Source: Candidatus Methylomirabilota bacterium (GTDB lineage Bacteria; Methylomirabilota; Methylomirabilia; Rokubacteriales; CSP1-6). From it: a stretch of 58,842 nucleotides of DNA. The stretch is from positions 1-58,842 of the forward strand of contig DASYTI010000067.1 of assembly GCA_036002485.1 (NCBI GenBank), in the 5' to 3' direction. Of this stretch, positions 18,445 through 24,286 are shown in pieces. Positions within the stretch are counted from its first letter, which is position 1. Each line of letters opens with the position of its first letter. The position numbers and the translations under genes were made by a program. The notes beneath the pieces are model-generated. The model did not search any database, was not told where the DNA came from, and worked only from the letters and a program-made list of their open reading frames with translations.

Positions 18445-19683
18445 GTGAATCAAGTCGGCGCATCTGGAGAGTGGGCGGGAGAGCCCGGGCGGGACAAGCT
18501 GGCCGTCTTCACTCGGTCCCTCGAGGCCGAGGTCCGCGAGCTCCGCGCCAAGCTGGCCGCTCAGCAGCGGACTCTTGTCACGGCCCACCGCATGATGACG
18601 CTGGGGCGGCTCCTCTCGGATGTCGCGCATGACGTCTCCAATCCGCTGACTACCCTGGTCGCCCGGAGCGCCATGATCCGGATGACCTCGTCGACGCTCG
18701 AGGACGCCCAGCGTCACGCCGCCATCATCGAAGAGCAGGGACAGCGTGCCGCCCGAAGCATGCGCACTGTCTCGGGCTTCGGCCTGGGTGGAGAGCCCGG
18801 ACGCGCTCCCCTCGATCTCAACGAAGTGGTCCACGCCGTGATCGAGCTCCAGCGGCACCAGCTCGCCGGGAGCAATATCACCGTGACCGCCGAGCTCGAG
18901 CGGGGGCTGCCACACATTTCCGGGGAGGAGCAGCAGCTTCAGCACGTCGTCCTGAACCTGGTGCTCAACGCCTATGAAGCCATCGAGGCCACTCGGGAGG
19001 GAGGCGCCGTCACCGTGTCGACGCACGCGGATGAGGGCACGGTGTGGGTATCGGTTCGTGATAACGGACCTGGTATGCCGCCCGAGGTCGCCGACCGCGC
19101 TTTTCAGTCGTTTTTCACCACCAAGGACGAGCGCCTGGGCCTGGGCCTCGGGATCGCGCGCGAGCTTGCCCTGGCTCATGGCGGCGACATCGCCGTGCAA
19201 TCGGTGCAAGGCGCGGGCACCATCGTCACTCTGACCTTGCCCCGACCCGTGGCCCCTCCCCCCGCCGCGCATGCGGGCTTGGCGGAGCACGCGGCCGTCG
19301 CCTCCCGCCGCCCGCTGCTCGTGGTGGACGACGAGAGCGAAGTGGGAGAGCTTCTCTCGGACATTCTCCGGACCAGGGGTTATGAGACCCAGTATGTCGC
19401 CTCCCCCCGGGCCGCCCTCGAGCTGATCCGTGATCGCGACTTCCAGGGTGTCCTCATGGATCTCCGCATGCCGGAGATGAGCGGCACCGAGCTCTGGCGA
19501 GAGCTGCAGCGCGAACGGCCGGCCCTGGCCCTCAAGACCATCTTCATGACGGGCGACTACGCGAGCCTCGACACCGTGGCCATGCTGAGCGGCACGGAGC
19601 GGCCCTTGCTCAGCAAGCCATTCCGTTCCGACGAGCTCGATCTGGCCCTCGCCAGCCTGGACTCGATGGCCAAGGGCGACTGA
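18445..19683 (+). CDS. Hybrid sensor histidine kinase with C-terminal receiver, no sensor domain
   Basis: 412 residues from GTG 18445, chosen because AGGGAGG lies 4 nt upstream; in-frame ATGs at 18322 and 18394 have no ribosome site. A short coiled coil (about 18-45) leads into the dimerisation/phosphoacceptor domain, with His62 in SDVAHDVSNPL. The HATPase domain follows: NLVLNAYEAIE, DNGPGMPPE and GLGLGIARELA. The receiver domain has the VVDDES acidic pocket, phosphoacceptor Asp near 339 in VLMDLRMPEMSG and Lys in SKPF. It has no membrane segment and no PAS or GAF domain, so it is a cytoplasmic kinase with an unknown input. It is 5 nt upstream of its response regulator. Confidence 0.92.
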   Translation: MNQVGASGEWAGEPGRDKLAVFTRSLEAEVRELRAKLAAQQRTLVTAHRMMTLGRLLSDVAHDVSNPLTTLVARSAMIRMTSSTLEDAQRHAAIIEEQGQRAARSMRTVSGFGLGGEPGRAPLDLNEVVHAVIELQRHQLAGSNITVTAELERGLPHISGEEQQLQHVVLNLVLNAYEAIEATREGGAVTVSTHADEGTVWVSVRDNGPGMPPEVADRAFQSFFTTKDERLGLGLGIARELALAHGGDIAVQSVQGAGTIVTLTLPRPVAPPPAAHAGLAEHAAVASRRPLLVVDDESEVGELLSDILRTRGYETQYVASPRAALELIRDRDFQGVLMDLRMPEMSGTELWRELQRERPALALKTIFMTGDYASLDTVAMLSGTERPLLSKPFRSDELDLALASLDSMAKGD

Positions 19684-19688
19684 CCGCG

Positions 19689-20942
19689 ATGGCCAAGCCC
19701 CGGGCCCTTCTCGTCGAGGATGATCCGAGCGTGCGGAGCACGCTCACCGAGCTGCTCCAGCATGCCGGTTTCGAGGCCGATGCCGTCGGGAGCGCGGCCG
19801 AGGCCCGGCGCCACGTCGCCGACCATGCCCCGGACTTGGCCGTCCTCGATCTCGTGCTCCCGGACTCCGACGGCGTCACCCTCCTCTCGGACCTGCGCTC
19901 GGGCAGCCCAGAGCTCCGCGCCATCATGGTCACGGGTCATACGGATCCGCGCAGCATCGTGGCCGCGATGCGGGGTGGAGCCCTCGACTATCTGCCCAAG
20001 CCGGTAGACCCCGAGGTCTTCATGCGCCTCTGCCGCTCAGCGGTCGCCGACACCGCCGGGACGTCAGGGACCGCGGCCGTCGAGGCCCTGGTGGGAGGCT
20101 CCCCCTGGACCACCCGCATGAAGCAGACCATCGAGCGGCTGGCCCGGACCCGTCCGGCGGGCGCGCTCGTGAGCGGTGAGCCCGGGGCCGGCAAGACGCA
20201 CCTGGCGCGTGTGCTTCACACCGCCATGGGCCGGAGCGCCCATCCGTGTCTCGTGTACGCCTGCGGCGACTCGGCCAATCCCTCGGTGGATCTCTTCGGT
20301 GTCGCCACGACCTCGGAAGGCGGGCTGGCCACGGCCGTTCAGGGCGGCACCTTGATCCTCGACGATGTCGAGAAGCTCGACGCGCGCCTGCAGGAGCGGC
20401 TGACGAACTGGATCGCCTCGCTGGCCGAGGCCTCCGGCAGAACACCGCTCGTGATCGGTCTCACCACGGGCATGCGCAGGGACGCCCCCCTCCTCGACTC
20501 GCTCGGTCGGGTGGCGCTGGGCATTTCTCCGCTGCGTGAGCGGACCGCCGATATCGAGCCTCTCGCGCGCCACTTCCTGGCCCAGAGCGCGGCAACGCTC
20601 GGCAGGCCCTTCGAAGGCTTCACGCGCGGGGCGATACACCGGCTCATCGGCCATGTGTGGCTGGGAAATGTCCGCGAGCTCGCGCAGGCCGTGGCCCAGG
20701 CCGCCCAGGCCATGCCGGGCGGCGCCCTGCACGCCGACCACTTCCTCGCGGCCGAGCGTGGCTCTTCTGGGCCCGCCTGGGCTCCTACCGGTGAGCCGCG
20801 GCCGCTTCGTGAGATAGAGGACGCGTACATCGATCACGTGATCGGGCTCTGCGGCGGCAACAAGACCCGCGCCGCTAAGATCCTGGGGGTGGCGCGCGAG
20901 ACTCTTCGCATCCGGCTGACCGCTCGGCACTCTCCCGCCTGA
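19689..20942 (+). CDS. NtrC-family response regulator lacking the GAFTGA loop
   Basis: 417 residues: receiver (1-120, Asp54 in AVLDLVLPDSDG, Lys near 103), AAA+ domain (about 140-340) and Fis-type HTH (about 375-415, NKTRAAKILGVARETLRIRL). Walker A is GEPGAGKTH near 163-171. Where sigma-54 activators carry the GAFTGA loop after the LFG motif, this protein goes straight from DLFGVATTSEGGLATAVQ to GGTLILDDVEK, so the loop is gone, and the Walker B DE is DD. It therefore probably cannot remodel sigma-54 polymerase and may act with another sigma factor or as a repressor. The gene follows the hybrid kinase with a 5-nt gap. Confidence 0.93.
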   Translation: MAKPRALLVEDDPSVRSTLTELLQHAGFEADAVGSAAEARRHVADHAPDLAVLDLVLPDSDGVTLLSDLRSGSPELRAIMVTGHTDPRSIVAAMRGGALDYLPKPVDPEVFMRLCRSAVADTAGTSGTAAVEALVGGSPWTTRMKQTIERLARTRPAGALVSGEPGAGKTHLARVLHTAMGRSAHPCLVYACGDSANPSVDLFGVATTSEGGLATAVQGGTLILDDVEKLDARLQERLTNWIASLAEASGRTPLVIGLTTGMRRDAPLLDSLGRVALGISPLRERTADIEPLARHFLAQSAATLGRPFEGFTRGAIHRLIGHVWLGNVRELAQAVAQAAQAMPGGALHADHFLAAERGSSGPAWAPTGEPRPLREIEDAYIDHVIGLCGGNKTRAAKILGVARETLRIRLTARHSPA

Positions 20943-21087
20943 TCGCCACTCAGCTCGAAACCCGGGCAGCGTCTCGGCTTGTCGGACGGGTACTTCCGGA
21001 ATTCTTCCCGCCCTATTTCGGCAACGATTGCCGGAATCCGGGCTGTCAGCGAGGAAACAGCGAATCCCGTCAACAAGTTGGACTGCC

Positions 21088-21103
21088 TGGAATACAGCTT
21101 GCT
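21088..21103 (+). promoter_or_regulatory. Candidate sigma-54 (-24/-12) promoter for the sigma-factor gene
   Basis: TGGAATACAGCTTGCT has the invariant GG (21089-21090) and GC (21101-21102) at the exact 10-base spacing of sigma-54 promoters, and a good TTGCT -12 box. The -24 box is TGGAAT, against the TGGCAC consensus. Upstream, CCGGAAT occurs twice (20997-21003, 21032-21038) and could be activator sites. It sits 45 bases before the start codon of the sigma factor. Confidence 0.5.
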
Positions 21104-21116
21104 CTAAGGTGGAGGT

Positions 21117-21152
21117 ATGAGACACCCAACGCCGCCAAGGAGCCGCCAATGA
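21117..21152 (+). CDS. 11-codon leader ORF overlapping the sigma-factor start
   Basis: ATG at 21117 follows an excellent ribosome site (AAGGTGGAGG, 21106-21115). It encodes MRHPTPPRSRQ and ends at TGA 21150-21152, which overlaps the ATG (21149) of the sigma gene as ATGA. The real sigma gene has only a weaker AAGGAG of its own, inside this ORF. The layout suggests translational coupling or a control peptide. The proline- and arginine-rich content (three Pro, three Arg) could slow ribosomes. No homologue is known to me. Confidence 0.45.
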   Translation: MRHPTPPRSRQ

Positions 21153-21988
21153 AAGCCGTGAGCCAGACCTATCGCTGGCCTTTCGAAACCGCGGGAAGGG
21201 CCGTGAACCGCGAGGAAGTGGATGCCGCCTGGATCGCCTATAGGACAAACCCTTCGGGCGAGGCCAGAGACGTGATCGTCGAACGGTACATCCACCTGGT
21301 GCGCTACATGGCCCGGCGGCTGGGGCGGGCACTGCCGCCCTCGGTCGACCCTGACGACCTCGTGGGCGCGGGCCTCGAGGGCTTTCTGGGGGCGGTCGAC
21401 CGCTTCGATCCCGAGCAGGGAACGGACTTCAGCGTCTACGCGCTCACGCGGATCCGTGGAGCCATGGTGGACTTCGTCCGCGAGATCGATCCGGTGGGAC
21501 GCACCACGCGCCGGCGCCTCCGCGAGGCGGGGCGCGCCGTCGCGGCGCTCGAGCAGGACCGCGGCCATGAGATCTCGGATGCCGAGGCCGCCGAGCATCT
21601 GGGACTGTCCATGGATCGTTACCACGAGCTGATGACCTTCCAGGCCGCAGGCTCTCCCCTCTCGCTCGAGCGGCTCGAGGGAGGCGACGAGGACAATCGC
21701 GGCGCGGCCGCGCACGGGCGCCTCGCCGACCACTCGGAGGGGGATGCCTTGGGCCACGTCCTCGACTCGGAGCGCGCGTACGACGTTGCCGCGCTGGTCA
21801 GCGGGCTTCCGCGAGGACAGCAGCTTGTGCTCCAGCTCTACTACGTGGAGGACCTCAACTTCCGAGAGATCGCCATGATCATGGACATCTCGGAGTCGCG
21901 CGCCACCCAGCTCCACACGGCCGCCGTCCAGGCCCTCCGCTCGGGTCGCGACTGCCTCGAGACGGTCAGCACGCTGGCGCTCGCCTAG
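21149..21988 (+). CDS. FliA/WhiG-family (sigma-28-like) RNA polymerase sigma factor
   Basis: 279 residues. Region 2 starts at about 38 (RDVIVERYIHLVRYMARRLG; PDDLVGAGLEGFLGAVDRFD; the -10-recognition helix TDFSVYALTRIRGAMVDFVR). Region 3 is about 115-165. Region 4 (about 215-265) contains LPRGQQLVLQLYYVEDLNFR and a helix-turn-helix EIAMIMDISESRATQLH. This is the group-3 sigma-70 type used for flagellar, sporulation or stress regulons. No motility gene is in the window, so the regulon is unknown. It lies between the atypical and the canonical NtrC-type regulators and has a leader ORF and possible sigma-54 promoter upstream. It converges on the downstream regulator. Confidence 0.92.
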   Translation: MKAVSQTYRWPFETAGRAVNREEVDAAWIAYRTNPSGEARDVIVERYIHLVRYMARRLGRALPPSVDPDDLVGAGLEGFLGAVDRFDPEQGTDFSVYALTRIRGAMVDFVREIDPVGRTTRRRLREAGRAVAALEQDRGHEISDAEAAEHLGLSMDRYHELMTFQAAGSPLSLERLEGGDEDNRGAAAHGRLADHSEGDALGHVLDSERAYDVAALVSGLPRGQQLVLQLYYVEDLNFREIAMIMDISESRATQLHTAAVQALRSGRDCLETVSTLALA

Positions 21989-22116: not shown

Positions 22117-23487
22117 CTAGCCCGCGGGCGGGCTATAGGTCTTGAGCTTGTTGTAGAGCGTCTTCGGGTCCACGCCCAGGACCTTCGCCGCCTGCGTCCG
22201 ATTCCCGCCGACGTGCTTCAGCACCTTCAGGATATGTCGGCGCTCGACCTCGTCGAGGGGGGGCAGCCCTCCCTCCGCATCCGGAGGCGGATTCGGCAGA
22301 TGGAAGGCCACCTCTTCGGCCGTGATCTCTTCTCCCGCCGCCATCACGGCCAGACGCTCGATCATGTTGCGGAGCTCTCGGACATTGCCGGGCCAACGGT
22401 GACTGGTGAGCACCTTGATGGCCTCGGGGGTGAAGCGGATCGCGCGCCCGCGCGGCTGCGCCACCCGCTGGGCGAAATAGCGGATGAGCATCGGAATGTC
22501 CTCGACGCGCTCGCGGAGCGGCGGCACCTCGATGAGCACGACCCCCAGGCGGAAATAGAGATCGTGACGGAAATCGCCGGCCGCCACCGCCTGATCGAGC
22601 CGCTTGTTGGTGGCGGCGATGATCCGCACGTCCACGTGGAGGGTGCGATTGCCGCCCAGGCGCCTGATCTCCCCGCTGTCGAGGGTGCGGAGGAGCTTGG
22701 CCTGCATGGCCTGGCTCATCTCCGCGACCTCGTCGAGGAAGAGCGTCCCGTCGTGGGCGAGCTCGAGGAGGCCTTGCCGCTGGCCCGCCGCCCCCGTGAA
22801 GGAGCCCTTCTCGTGACCGAAGAGCTCGGACTCGAGCAGCTCGTCGAGCAGCGCCGCGCAGTTGATGGCGAGAAATGGCTGATCGCGTCGATCGCTGGTC
22901 CGGTGAACGTAGCGAGCGGCCAGCTCCTTGCCGCTGCCGCTCTCGCCCTGGATGAGGACGTGGGAGCGGGAGTGACCCGCCCGGGTCAGGAGCTCACGCA
23001 GCCGCTCGATGGCCCGGCTCTGGCCCTGCATGGCCGGCTCGGGCTCATGCTGCAGGACGACGCGCCGGAGGGCCCGGTTCTCGTGACGGAGCCGGCGGTG
23101 CTCAGCGGCCCGGGCCACGACTTCGTAGAGCTCGCTCAGCCGGAAAGGCTTGGTGACGTAGTCGAAGGCGCGGAGCTTGAGCGCCTCGATGGCCGTCTCG
23201 ACCTCGGCGTATCCGGTGACAATGATGACTTCGGCGTCATAGCCTTCGGCCCGCATGGCCTGCAGGACCTGGATGCCGTCCTTGCGGGGCATGCGCAGGT
23301 CCATGAGGACGACATCGAACTCCTCCCGGGCGAGGGTCCGGAGGGCGGCCTCGCCGTCCCGGGCGGCGCTGACGACATACCCCTTGCGCTCGAGCCCGGT
23401 GACGACCGTGTCTGACAGGGCAGGGTCGTCTTCCACAACCAGCAGCCGGGTCGCTTTGACCGCGCTCTCTACGACTTCGCTTTCCAT
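22117..23487 (-). CDS. Sigma-54-dependent response regulator (NtrC/AtoC type)
   Basis: 456 residues with three domains. Receiver: Asp63 in VVLMDLRMPRKDG, VVEDDP acidic pocket, Lys in YVTKPF. AAA+ sigma-54 activator: Walker A GESGSGKELAA near 183-193, GHEKGSFTGA near 225 which is the sigma-54 contact loop, GTLFLDEVAEM Walker B, and RWPGNVRELRN. Fis-type HTH: GNRTQAAKVLGVDPKTLYNKL near 428-448. Start ATG 23487; the open frame upstream lacks conserved sequence. It is an orphan (no kinase next to it) and is the only regulator in this block able to activate a sigma-54 promoter, such as the candidate at 21088. Confidence 0.95.
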   Translation of the reverse strand: MESEVVESAVKATRLLVVEDDPALSDTVVTGLERKGYVVSAARDGEAALRTLAREEFDVVLMDLRMPRKDGIQVLQAMRAEGYDAEVIIVTGYAEVETAIEALKLRAFDYVTKPFRLSELYEVVARAAEHRRLRHENRALRRVVLQHEPEPAMQGQSRAIERLRELLTRAGHSRSHVLIQGESGSGKELAARYVHRTSDRRDQPFLAINCAALLDELLESELFGHEKGSFTGAAGQRQGLLELAHDGTLFLDEVAEMSQAMQAKLLRTLDSGEIRRLGGNRTLHVDVRIIAATNKRLDQAVAAGDFRHDLYFRLGVVLIEVPPLRERVEDIPMLIRYFAQRVAQPRGRAIRFTPEAIKVLTSHRWPGNVRELRNMIERLAVMAAGEEITAEEVAFHLPNPPPDAEGGLPPLDEVERRHILKVLKHVGGNRTQAAKVLGVDPKTLYNKLKTYSPPAG

Positions 23488-23844: not shown

Positions 23845-24144
23845 TCAGCCCGCGCTCAGCAAGCCAGGGAATCCAGGGGGCGAAGTCGCCTGCCCTTCTC
23901 GTCCCCGCTTGAGCTCGCCCAGAATCTGGCCATCCACCGACGCGAGCTCGCCCTGGGAAACCCGCAGCAGCCATCGCTGGCCACACGAGCAATCGAAGAC
24001 CACGGTGCACTGGCATCCGCCGCGGGCCCCCATGGGCACGTGTATGCGATGGAGGCGGAGACCATGCGAGCCGGCGCACTCGCGAAATCGACCCGTATGA
24101 TCCTGTGCCTCCAGCGTCGCGTTCGAAGGCCGTGCTCTGCTCAT
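23845..24144 (-). CDS. Small cysteine-containing hypothetical protein
   Basis: 99 residues. A cluster CQC-x7-CSCGQRW near 44-58 (four Cys) followed by a short helix LLRVSQGELASVDGQ looks like a small zinc- or thiol-type fold. A further Cys lies near 23. GAGAGG sits just before the ATG at 24144. It converges with the 61-residue gene. I do not recognise a family; a metal-binding role is inference from the Cys pattern. Confidence 0.45.
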   Translation of the reverse strand: MSRARPSNATLEAQDHTGRFRECAGSHGLRLHRIHVPMGARGGCQCTVVFDCSCGQRWLLRVSQGELASVDGQILGELKRGREGQATSPPGFPGLLSAG

Positions 24145-24286
24145 GCCTCTCAGAGGAGCAAGAGCCGTTCCACCCTCTATCTGCCTGATCTTACGATCCT
24201 AGGCGCACAGGAAGCTGACGGCACCCCGCAAAGCCGCCCCAAAATTGGCAGGAAAGCTGCCGAGGCCCGGCATGCGGTTTTGAGTC

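Follow-up and report, generated by a model that had tools for sequence, protein, structure and literature searches.

A conserved NtrC-type response regulator from a soil Rokubacterium without GAFTGA and with an eroded AAA+ motor, encoded beside a FliA-like sigma factor

The regulator encoded at positions 19689 to 20942 of the window, that is, of the whole 58,842 nt stretch of DNA analyzed here, which comes from a soil Rokubacterium, has the receiver residues and the HTH_8 domain of an NtrC-type two-component response regulator and exceeds the score cut-off for the sigma-54 activator domain, but it lacks the GAFTGA loop and the catalytic apparatus of these activators beyond Walker A. Because the tested defining features fail, this protein, P0001, should on the strength of its sequence be regarded as NtrC-type by descent and should not be annotated as a sigma-54 activator. 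By analogy with R. capsulatus NtrC, VpsR, or TyrR, P0001 is probably a DNA-binding regulator that is controlled by phosphorylation and does not remodel the polymerase. Regulators without GAFTGA are already known and uncommon, and P0001 joins them as a member that appears unusually eroded. The features that define the protein are as follows.

19689..20942, plus strand: P0001 regulator, 417 aa, with a receiver (REC), an AAA+ core without GAFTGA, a lid, and a Fis-type HTH
20175..20198, plus strand: Walker A GEPGAGKT, kept (residues 163-170)
20298..20324, plus strand: leftover segment GVATTSEGG at the place of loop 1/GAFTGA (residues 204-212), a gap in all four orthologues
20358..20366, plus strand: Walker B L-D-D, not L-D-E (residues 224-226), where all 52 other homologues have Glu
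20472..20510, plus strand: arginine-finger region FRxDLYYR, deleted or replaced (residues 262-274), finger 1 gapped and finger 2 Ser271, with approximate boundaries
20805..20918, plus strand: Fis-type helix-turn-helix HTH_8 (residues 373-410), strongly constrained (dN/dS 0.06)

All domains of P0001 score above the Pfam cut-offs, namely, the receiver (residues 7-112), the sigma-54-type AAA+ core (135-242), the AAA+ lid (283-354), and HTH_8 (373-410). The receiver contains the Asp pair D11/D12, the phospho-acceptor D54, T82, and K104. The core reaches 48 bits with PF00158 (cut-off 20.2), and since it passes, databases label proteins of this kind 'sigma-54-dependent regulator'; the match covers only positions 2-117 of the 168 in the profile. 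In translation, the critical stretch reads DLFG-VATTSEGG-LATAVQGG, without GAFTGA, and Walker B reads LILDDVE. The extent of the loss was assessed in a 56-row alignment that set P0001 and its three orthologues against 52 homologues of greater distance. Conservation of the GAFTGA columns is 90-100% among these 52 proteins, and all four orthologues have a gap there. The Walker B Glu, present in 52/52 other homologues, is Asp in 4/4 orthologues, arginine finger 1 in the FRxDL segment (52/52) is deleted, arginine finger 2 (52/52) is Ser or Trp, and the switch Asn (92% of the 52) is Ala or Asp. The roles of the switch Asn, the Walker B Glu, and the Arg finger in moving the L1 loop have been reviewed (PMC7175178). 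Walker A and the sensor II Arg are intact (100% kept), and Arg274, near the lost arginine finger, is invariant. None of the 52 non-orthologous homologues lacks more than two of the counted features. Sensor I, changed from ATN to LTT in P0001, was left out of this count, the alignment being ambiguous there. The initial annotation had pointed out the missing GAFTGA and the DD in place of DE in Walker B; both are found in all four orthologues, and the loss had been understated, as neither arginine finger nor the switch Asn had been listed. It had also considered that the loop might be present in a displaced position, but the loop is not displaced, as G-x-F-T-G occurs nowhere in P0001. A sequencing or assembly error was ruled out, as the same losses occur in four genomes.

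Orthologues of P0001 are present in 4 of the 57 family genomes, that is, in the window's genome, in G004 (87% identity), and in G009 and G030 (51%), and the latter three have lost the same motor features as P0001. A scan of one genome per species yielded only these three named Rokubacteria orthologues and, beyond them, generic homologues of about 30% identity. The genomes are fragmented, the three named ones are metagenome-assembled, and the orthologue sample is small, with four proteins from two genera that are not independent. In all four genomes the reading frame is open. In the comparison of the window with G004, P0001 as a whole has a dN/dS of 0.14. The receiver (0.05) and the HTH (0.06) lie below this value and the AAA+ core (0.22) lies above it; the leftover loop is fast-changing (0.73 for residues 204-214), and its length varies between genera. 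Constraint is weaker in the G009/G030 pair (0.27). This pattern indicates that P0001 has been kept, with the receiver and the DNA-binding end the most constrained parts, and the orthologues show how far the motor has been dismantled while these parts stayed under strong selection. With the motor residues gone in all orthologues and purifying selection acting on the protein, the different mode of action that had been postulated is well supported. As to the checks that the initial annotation had proposed, the AlphaFold2 model of P0001 (mean pLDDT 87) keeps the AAA+ fold, with Brucella NtrX and Aquifex NtrC1 as the structural matches of best E-value and VpsR and FleQ lower down, and a quick tree groups the four orthologues with full support, on a long branch (1.67) and without a resolved sister group.

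Immediately upstream of P0001, a kinase gene ends 5 bases before the start of the regulator.

18445..19683, plus strand: hybrid histidine kinase with HisKA, HATPase_c, and REC domains (Pfam), soluble, no recognisable input domain

The start at 18445 was picked by conservation with G004 and is a GTG after an AGGAGGC-type ribosome site. The pairing of the regulator with an input-free hybrid kinase had been described correctly. Among nine genomes searched, an orthologue of the kinase was found only in G004 (80%), the next-best match being 36-37% identical, and the kinase partner therefore appears to be specific to the window's genus. A Pfam search of the kinase for an Hpt domain gave no match, so that phosphate may or may not pass directly from its His to P0001.

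We propose that the ancestor of P0001 was a sigma-54 activator and that the parts required for remodelling the sigma-54 RNA polymerase were lost. The adjacent kinase would phosphorylate Asp54 of P0001, the phosphorylated receiver would alter how P0001 forms dimers or oligomers, and operator sites would be bound through the HTH. The AAA+ fold would be a platform for assembly, either ATP-binding or purely structural. In this way, P0001 would activate or repress promoters of sigma-70-family polymerase without itself driving sigma-54 open-complex formation. The ATPase activity has presumably been lost, and sigma-54 polymerase would not be remodelled. Some nucleotide-driven function is possible, since P0001 retains Walker A as well as the invariant Arg274 close to the lost finger. 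In the G030 orthologue (L031:12510-13811), the phospho-acceptor Asp of the receiver is changed to Ala and the conserved Thr is also lost. That protein is therefore probably not phosphorylated, and, given this substitution, phospho-control is apparently not universal among the orthologues.

There are several precedents for such a regulator. In R. capsulatus NtrC, which is sigma-70-dependent, loop 1 with GAFTGA is deleted, phosphorylation is needed, and ATP is bound without hydrolysis (PMC10274813). Both this protein and P0001 are REC-AAA+-HTH proteins without GAFTGA; R. capsulatus NtrC is the partner of NtrB in nitrogen control, and there is no orthology with P0001. Caulobacter NtrC has an eight-residue deletion over GAFTGA, acts on sigma-70 promoters, and depends in vivo on its Walker A and B residues (PMC10274813). 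It is, like P0001, a two-component NtrC-type protein without GAFTGA, whereas the Walker B Glu is missing in P0001. VpsR of Vibrio cholerae, a GAFTGA-defective relative of the sigma-54 activators, acts without ATP (PMC10274813, PMC3162934). Its structure (PDB 7v2b) matches the P0001 model at an identity of only 18-20%, and it is tied to c-di-GMP control, whereas P0001 shows no sign of c-di-GMP binding. TyrR, DhaR, and HupR are descendants of sigma-54 activators that are now sigma-70 dependent (PMC3162934); the input domains of TyrR and DhaR differ from that of P0001, and the motif changes in all three are small, as described in the same article. P0001 shares with the GAFTGA-less regulators the descent from sigma-54 activators and the deleted or altered loop 1. 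It differs from the known cases in its narrow distribution, its flagellar-relic setting, and perhaps the extent of motor loss. P0001 is not a member of the PgtA family, as it scores 143 bits with the PgtA profile NF047793 (equivalog cut-off 650). Positions 7-339 of the 414 in this profile align to residues 5-338 of P0001 with almost no net gap, whereas about 24 more residues are needed for a GAFTDA-bearing relative, and this profile comparison hints that PgtA may have deletions like those of P0001. FleQ, FlrC, and FlbD are NtrC-type sigma-54 activators in flagellar hierarchies that have kept a usable ATPase core. The flagellar setting is common to these proteins and P0001, by way of the G009 orthologue, but P0001 is apparently without a usable ATPase core.

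Downstream of P0001 lie a sigma factor gene with its own promoter elements and, convergent to it, an intact activator gene.

21019..21033, no strand assigned: perfect inverted repeat CGGCAACGATTGCCG (CGGCAA and TTGCCG around CGA), candidate regulator site
21088..21103, plus strand: sigma-54-type promoter TGGAATACAGCTTGCT, upstream of the sigma gene, in the gap between P0001 and that gene
21149..21988, plus strand: FliA/WhiG-type sigma factor with sigma-70 regions 2, 3, and 4, downstream of P0001
22117..23487, minus strand: NtrC-type sigma-54 activator, intact and GSFTGA-bearing, with Met 33 of the longest frame as its start, convergent to the sigma gene

The sigma factor scores 187.4 bits with TIGR02479 (cut-off 189.6), and its G009 orthologue scores 203. 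At an identity of at least 59%, the gene is present in exactly the four of the 57 genomes that have P0001, and one homologue of 39% occurs in G013. It is adjacent to P0001 in the window, G004, and G030, and its dN/dS of 0.11 reveals a constraint like that on P0001. From the initial annotation, which had suggested that P0001 acts with this FliA-like sigma factor, the genetic link stands (the same 4 of 57 genomes, adjacent genes), while joint action at promoters does not find support in the motif counts. The FliA-type motif is not clearly enriched in the window's genome (106 sites versus 87 in the reversed control) or in G004 (100 versus 101), and sites with 0-1 mismatches are absent from the G009 flagellar contig. 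The excess is larger in two members of the genus without this sigma factor (101 versus 68 and 146 versus 102), and the motif scan is therefore uninformative. It is possible that P0001 acts through the FliA-like sigma factor, and among local targets our guess falls on the adjacent sigma gene as the most plausible.

The promoter TGGAATACAGCTTGCT, which the initial annotation had overlooked, has the exact -24/-12 spacing, is conserved in G004, and has a chance probability in the gap of 0.0024. The whole G004 contig contains only two strict sigma-54-type sites, which match the window positions 21088-21103 and 24157-24172. As had been stated, the activator at 22117 on the minus strand keeps GSFTGA; it is 94% identical in G004, and a G009 protein of 67% identity groups with it. 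All three genes, those of P0001, the sigma factor, and this activator, are conserved together in G004 and located on one contig in G009, and rpoN is present in the window's genome. Judging from these elements, the sigma gene is probably controlled by sigma-54 via a true activator. Because of the conserved sigma-54-type promoter and the intact GSFTGA neighbor, the locus is not wholly sigma-54-independent and P0001 could still act within a sigma-54 circuit; it may, but need not, contact the sigma-gene promoter.

A direct role of this kind, possible though doubtful, would make P0001 a modulator that binds the enhancer region of the sigma gene, competes or forms mixed oligomers with the 22117 activator, and damps or gates that activator. 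The conserved promoter and the joint conservation of the three genes speak for it, as does the inverted repeat CGGCAACGATTGCCG, which lies about 55 bp upstream of TGGAATACAGCTTGCT and is perfect in G004 as well. However, a repeat of this kind is no rarity in a gap as long as this one (chance P about 0.19), a genome-wide count of CGGCAA-N3-TTGCCG shows no enrichment over the control (22 occurrences versus 21), and the repeat could not be detected in the stretches from G009 and G030. In addition, the recognition helices of P0001 and the 22117 activator differ. A regulon defined by the CGGCAA-N3-TTGCCG motif was dropped as a candidate for lack of genome-wide enrichment.

A second conserved sigma-54-type promoter, TGGAACGGCTCTTGCT (24157-24172, minus strand), has one mismatch to the consensus and is located 13 bases before a conserved 99-aa frame (23845-24144, minus strand), after which the 22117 activator gene follows. 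There are two rpoN-type matches in the window's genome (G000:C19:95200-95672 and G000:C106:54679-55149), and the first of these is broken into two parts in adjacent frames, which suggests a frameshift or an assembly error.

The genomic background of P0001 in G009 is flagellar, a context that had likewise been missed. The G009 contig with the P0001 orthologue also encodes flagellin, MotA, FliI, FlgD, FlgF, FlgL, and FliW, and the orthologue adjoins a kinase/activator pair and lies upstream of a fliA-type gene. The sigma frame of G009 (L030:16620-17600) begins with an FlgE/FlgG-like N-terminal stub of about 50 residues (FlgE profile, E 3.7e-11), and a shorter stub of this type can be read by eye in the sigma frame of G030 (L031:14051-14989); apparently, these stubs are the leftover of a deletion in a hook gene. 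FlhA, flagellin, and rod proteins had no match in the window's genome (96% complete) or in G004, both of which are fragmented. In G030 (98% complete), neither FlhA nor flagellin was detected, with one short rod-protein match, and FlhA was not found in G009, which is weak evidence as that genome is only 84% complete. Because the pair of P0001 and the sigma gene sits in a flagellar cluster in G009 and flagellar markers are absent from the window's genome, the window locus has the look of a regulatory relic. Most likely, the flagellum was lost while the regulators were retained; arrival of the module without flagellar structural genes is a possible alternative.

The absence of flagellar markers from the window's genome, the lost receiver Asp in G030, and the relaxed dN/dS of the G009/G030 pair would also fit a functionless pseudogene decaying after the loss of a flagellar system, but the frame is open in all four genomes, selection between the window and G004 is strong, above all on the receiver and the HTH, and the neighboring sigma gene is equally constrained, which makes decay highly unlikely. 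That P0001 is still a sigma-54 activator, via another surface or a displaced loop, is hardly credible: in its favor, P0001 still has Walker A and the sensor II Arg, and probable sigma-54 promoters lie nearby, but G-x-F-T-G occurs nowhere else in the protein, the remaining loop is short, fast-changing, and of different length between genera, and the catalytic Glu and both finger positions are lost. P0001 as a non-remodelling DNA-binding regulator is thus the reading that we prefer. Rather speculatively, and on balance we consider it unlikely, a flagellar transcription hierarchy may have outlived the flagellum, with the dead regulator, the kinase, the sigma-54 activator, and the FliA-type sigma factor rewired to a non-motility regulon and the sigma gene's own sigma-54 promoter under the gating control of the dead regulator. 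If true, this would be a case of regulators outlasting their machine, in an uncultured lineage.

Many NtrC-type regulators of Rokubacteria carry GAFTDA in place of GAFTGA (L013-L016, L018-L021, L023-L026; L007; L030:12048-13349). Among the carriers, one protein belongs to the window's genome and another to the flagellar cluster of G009, and GAFTDA is a lineage-wide variant of the sigma-54 loop.
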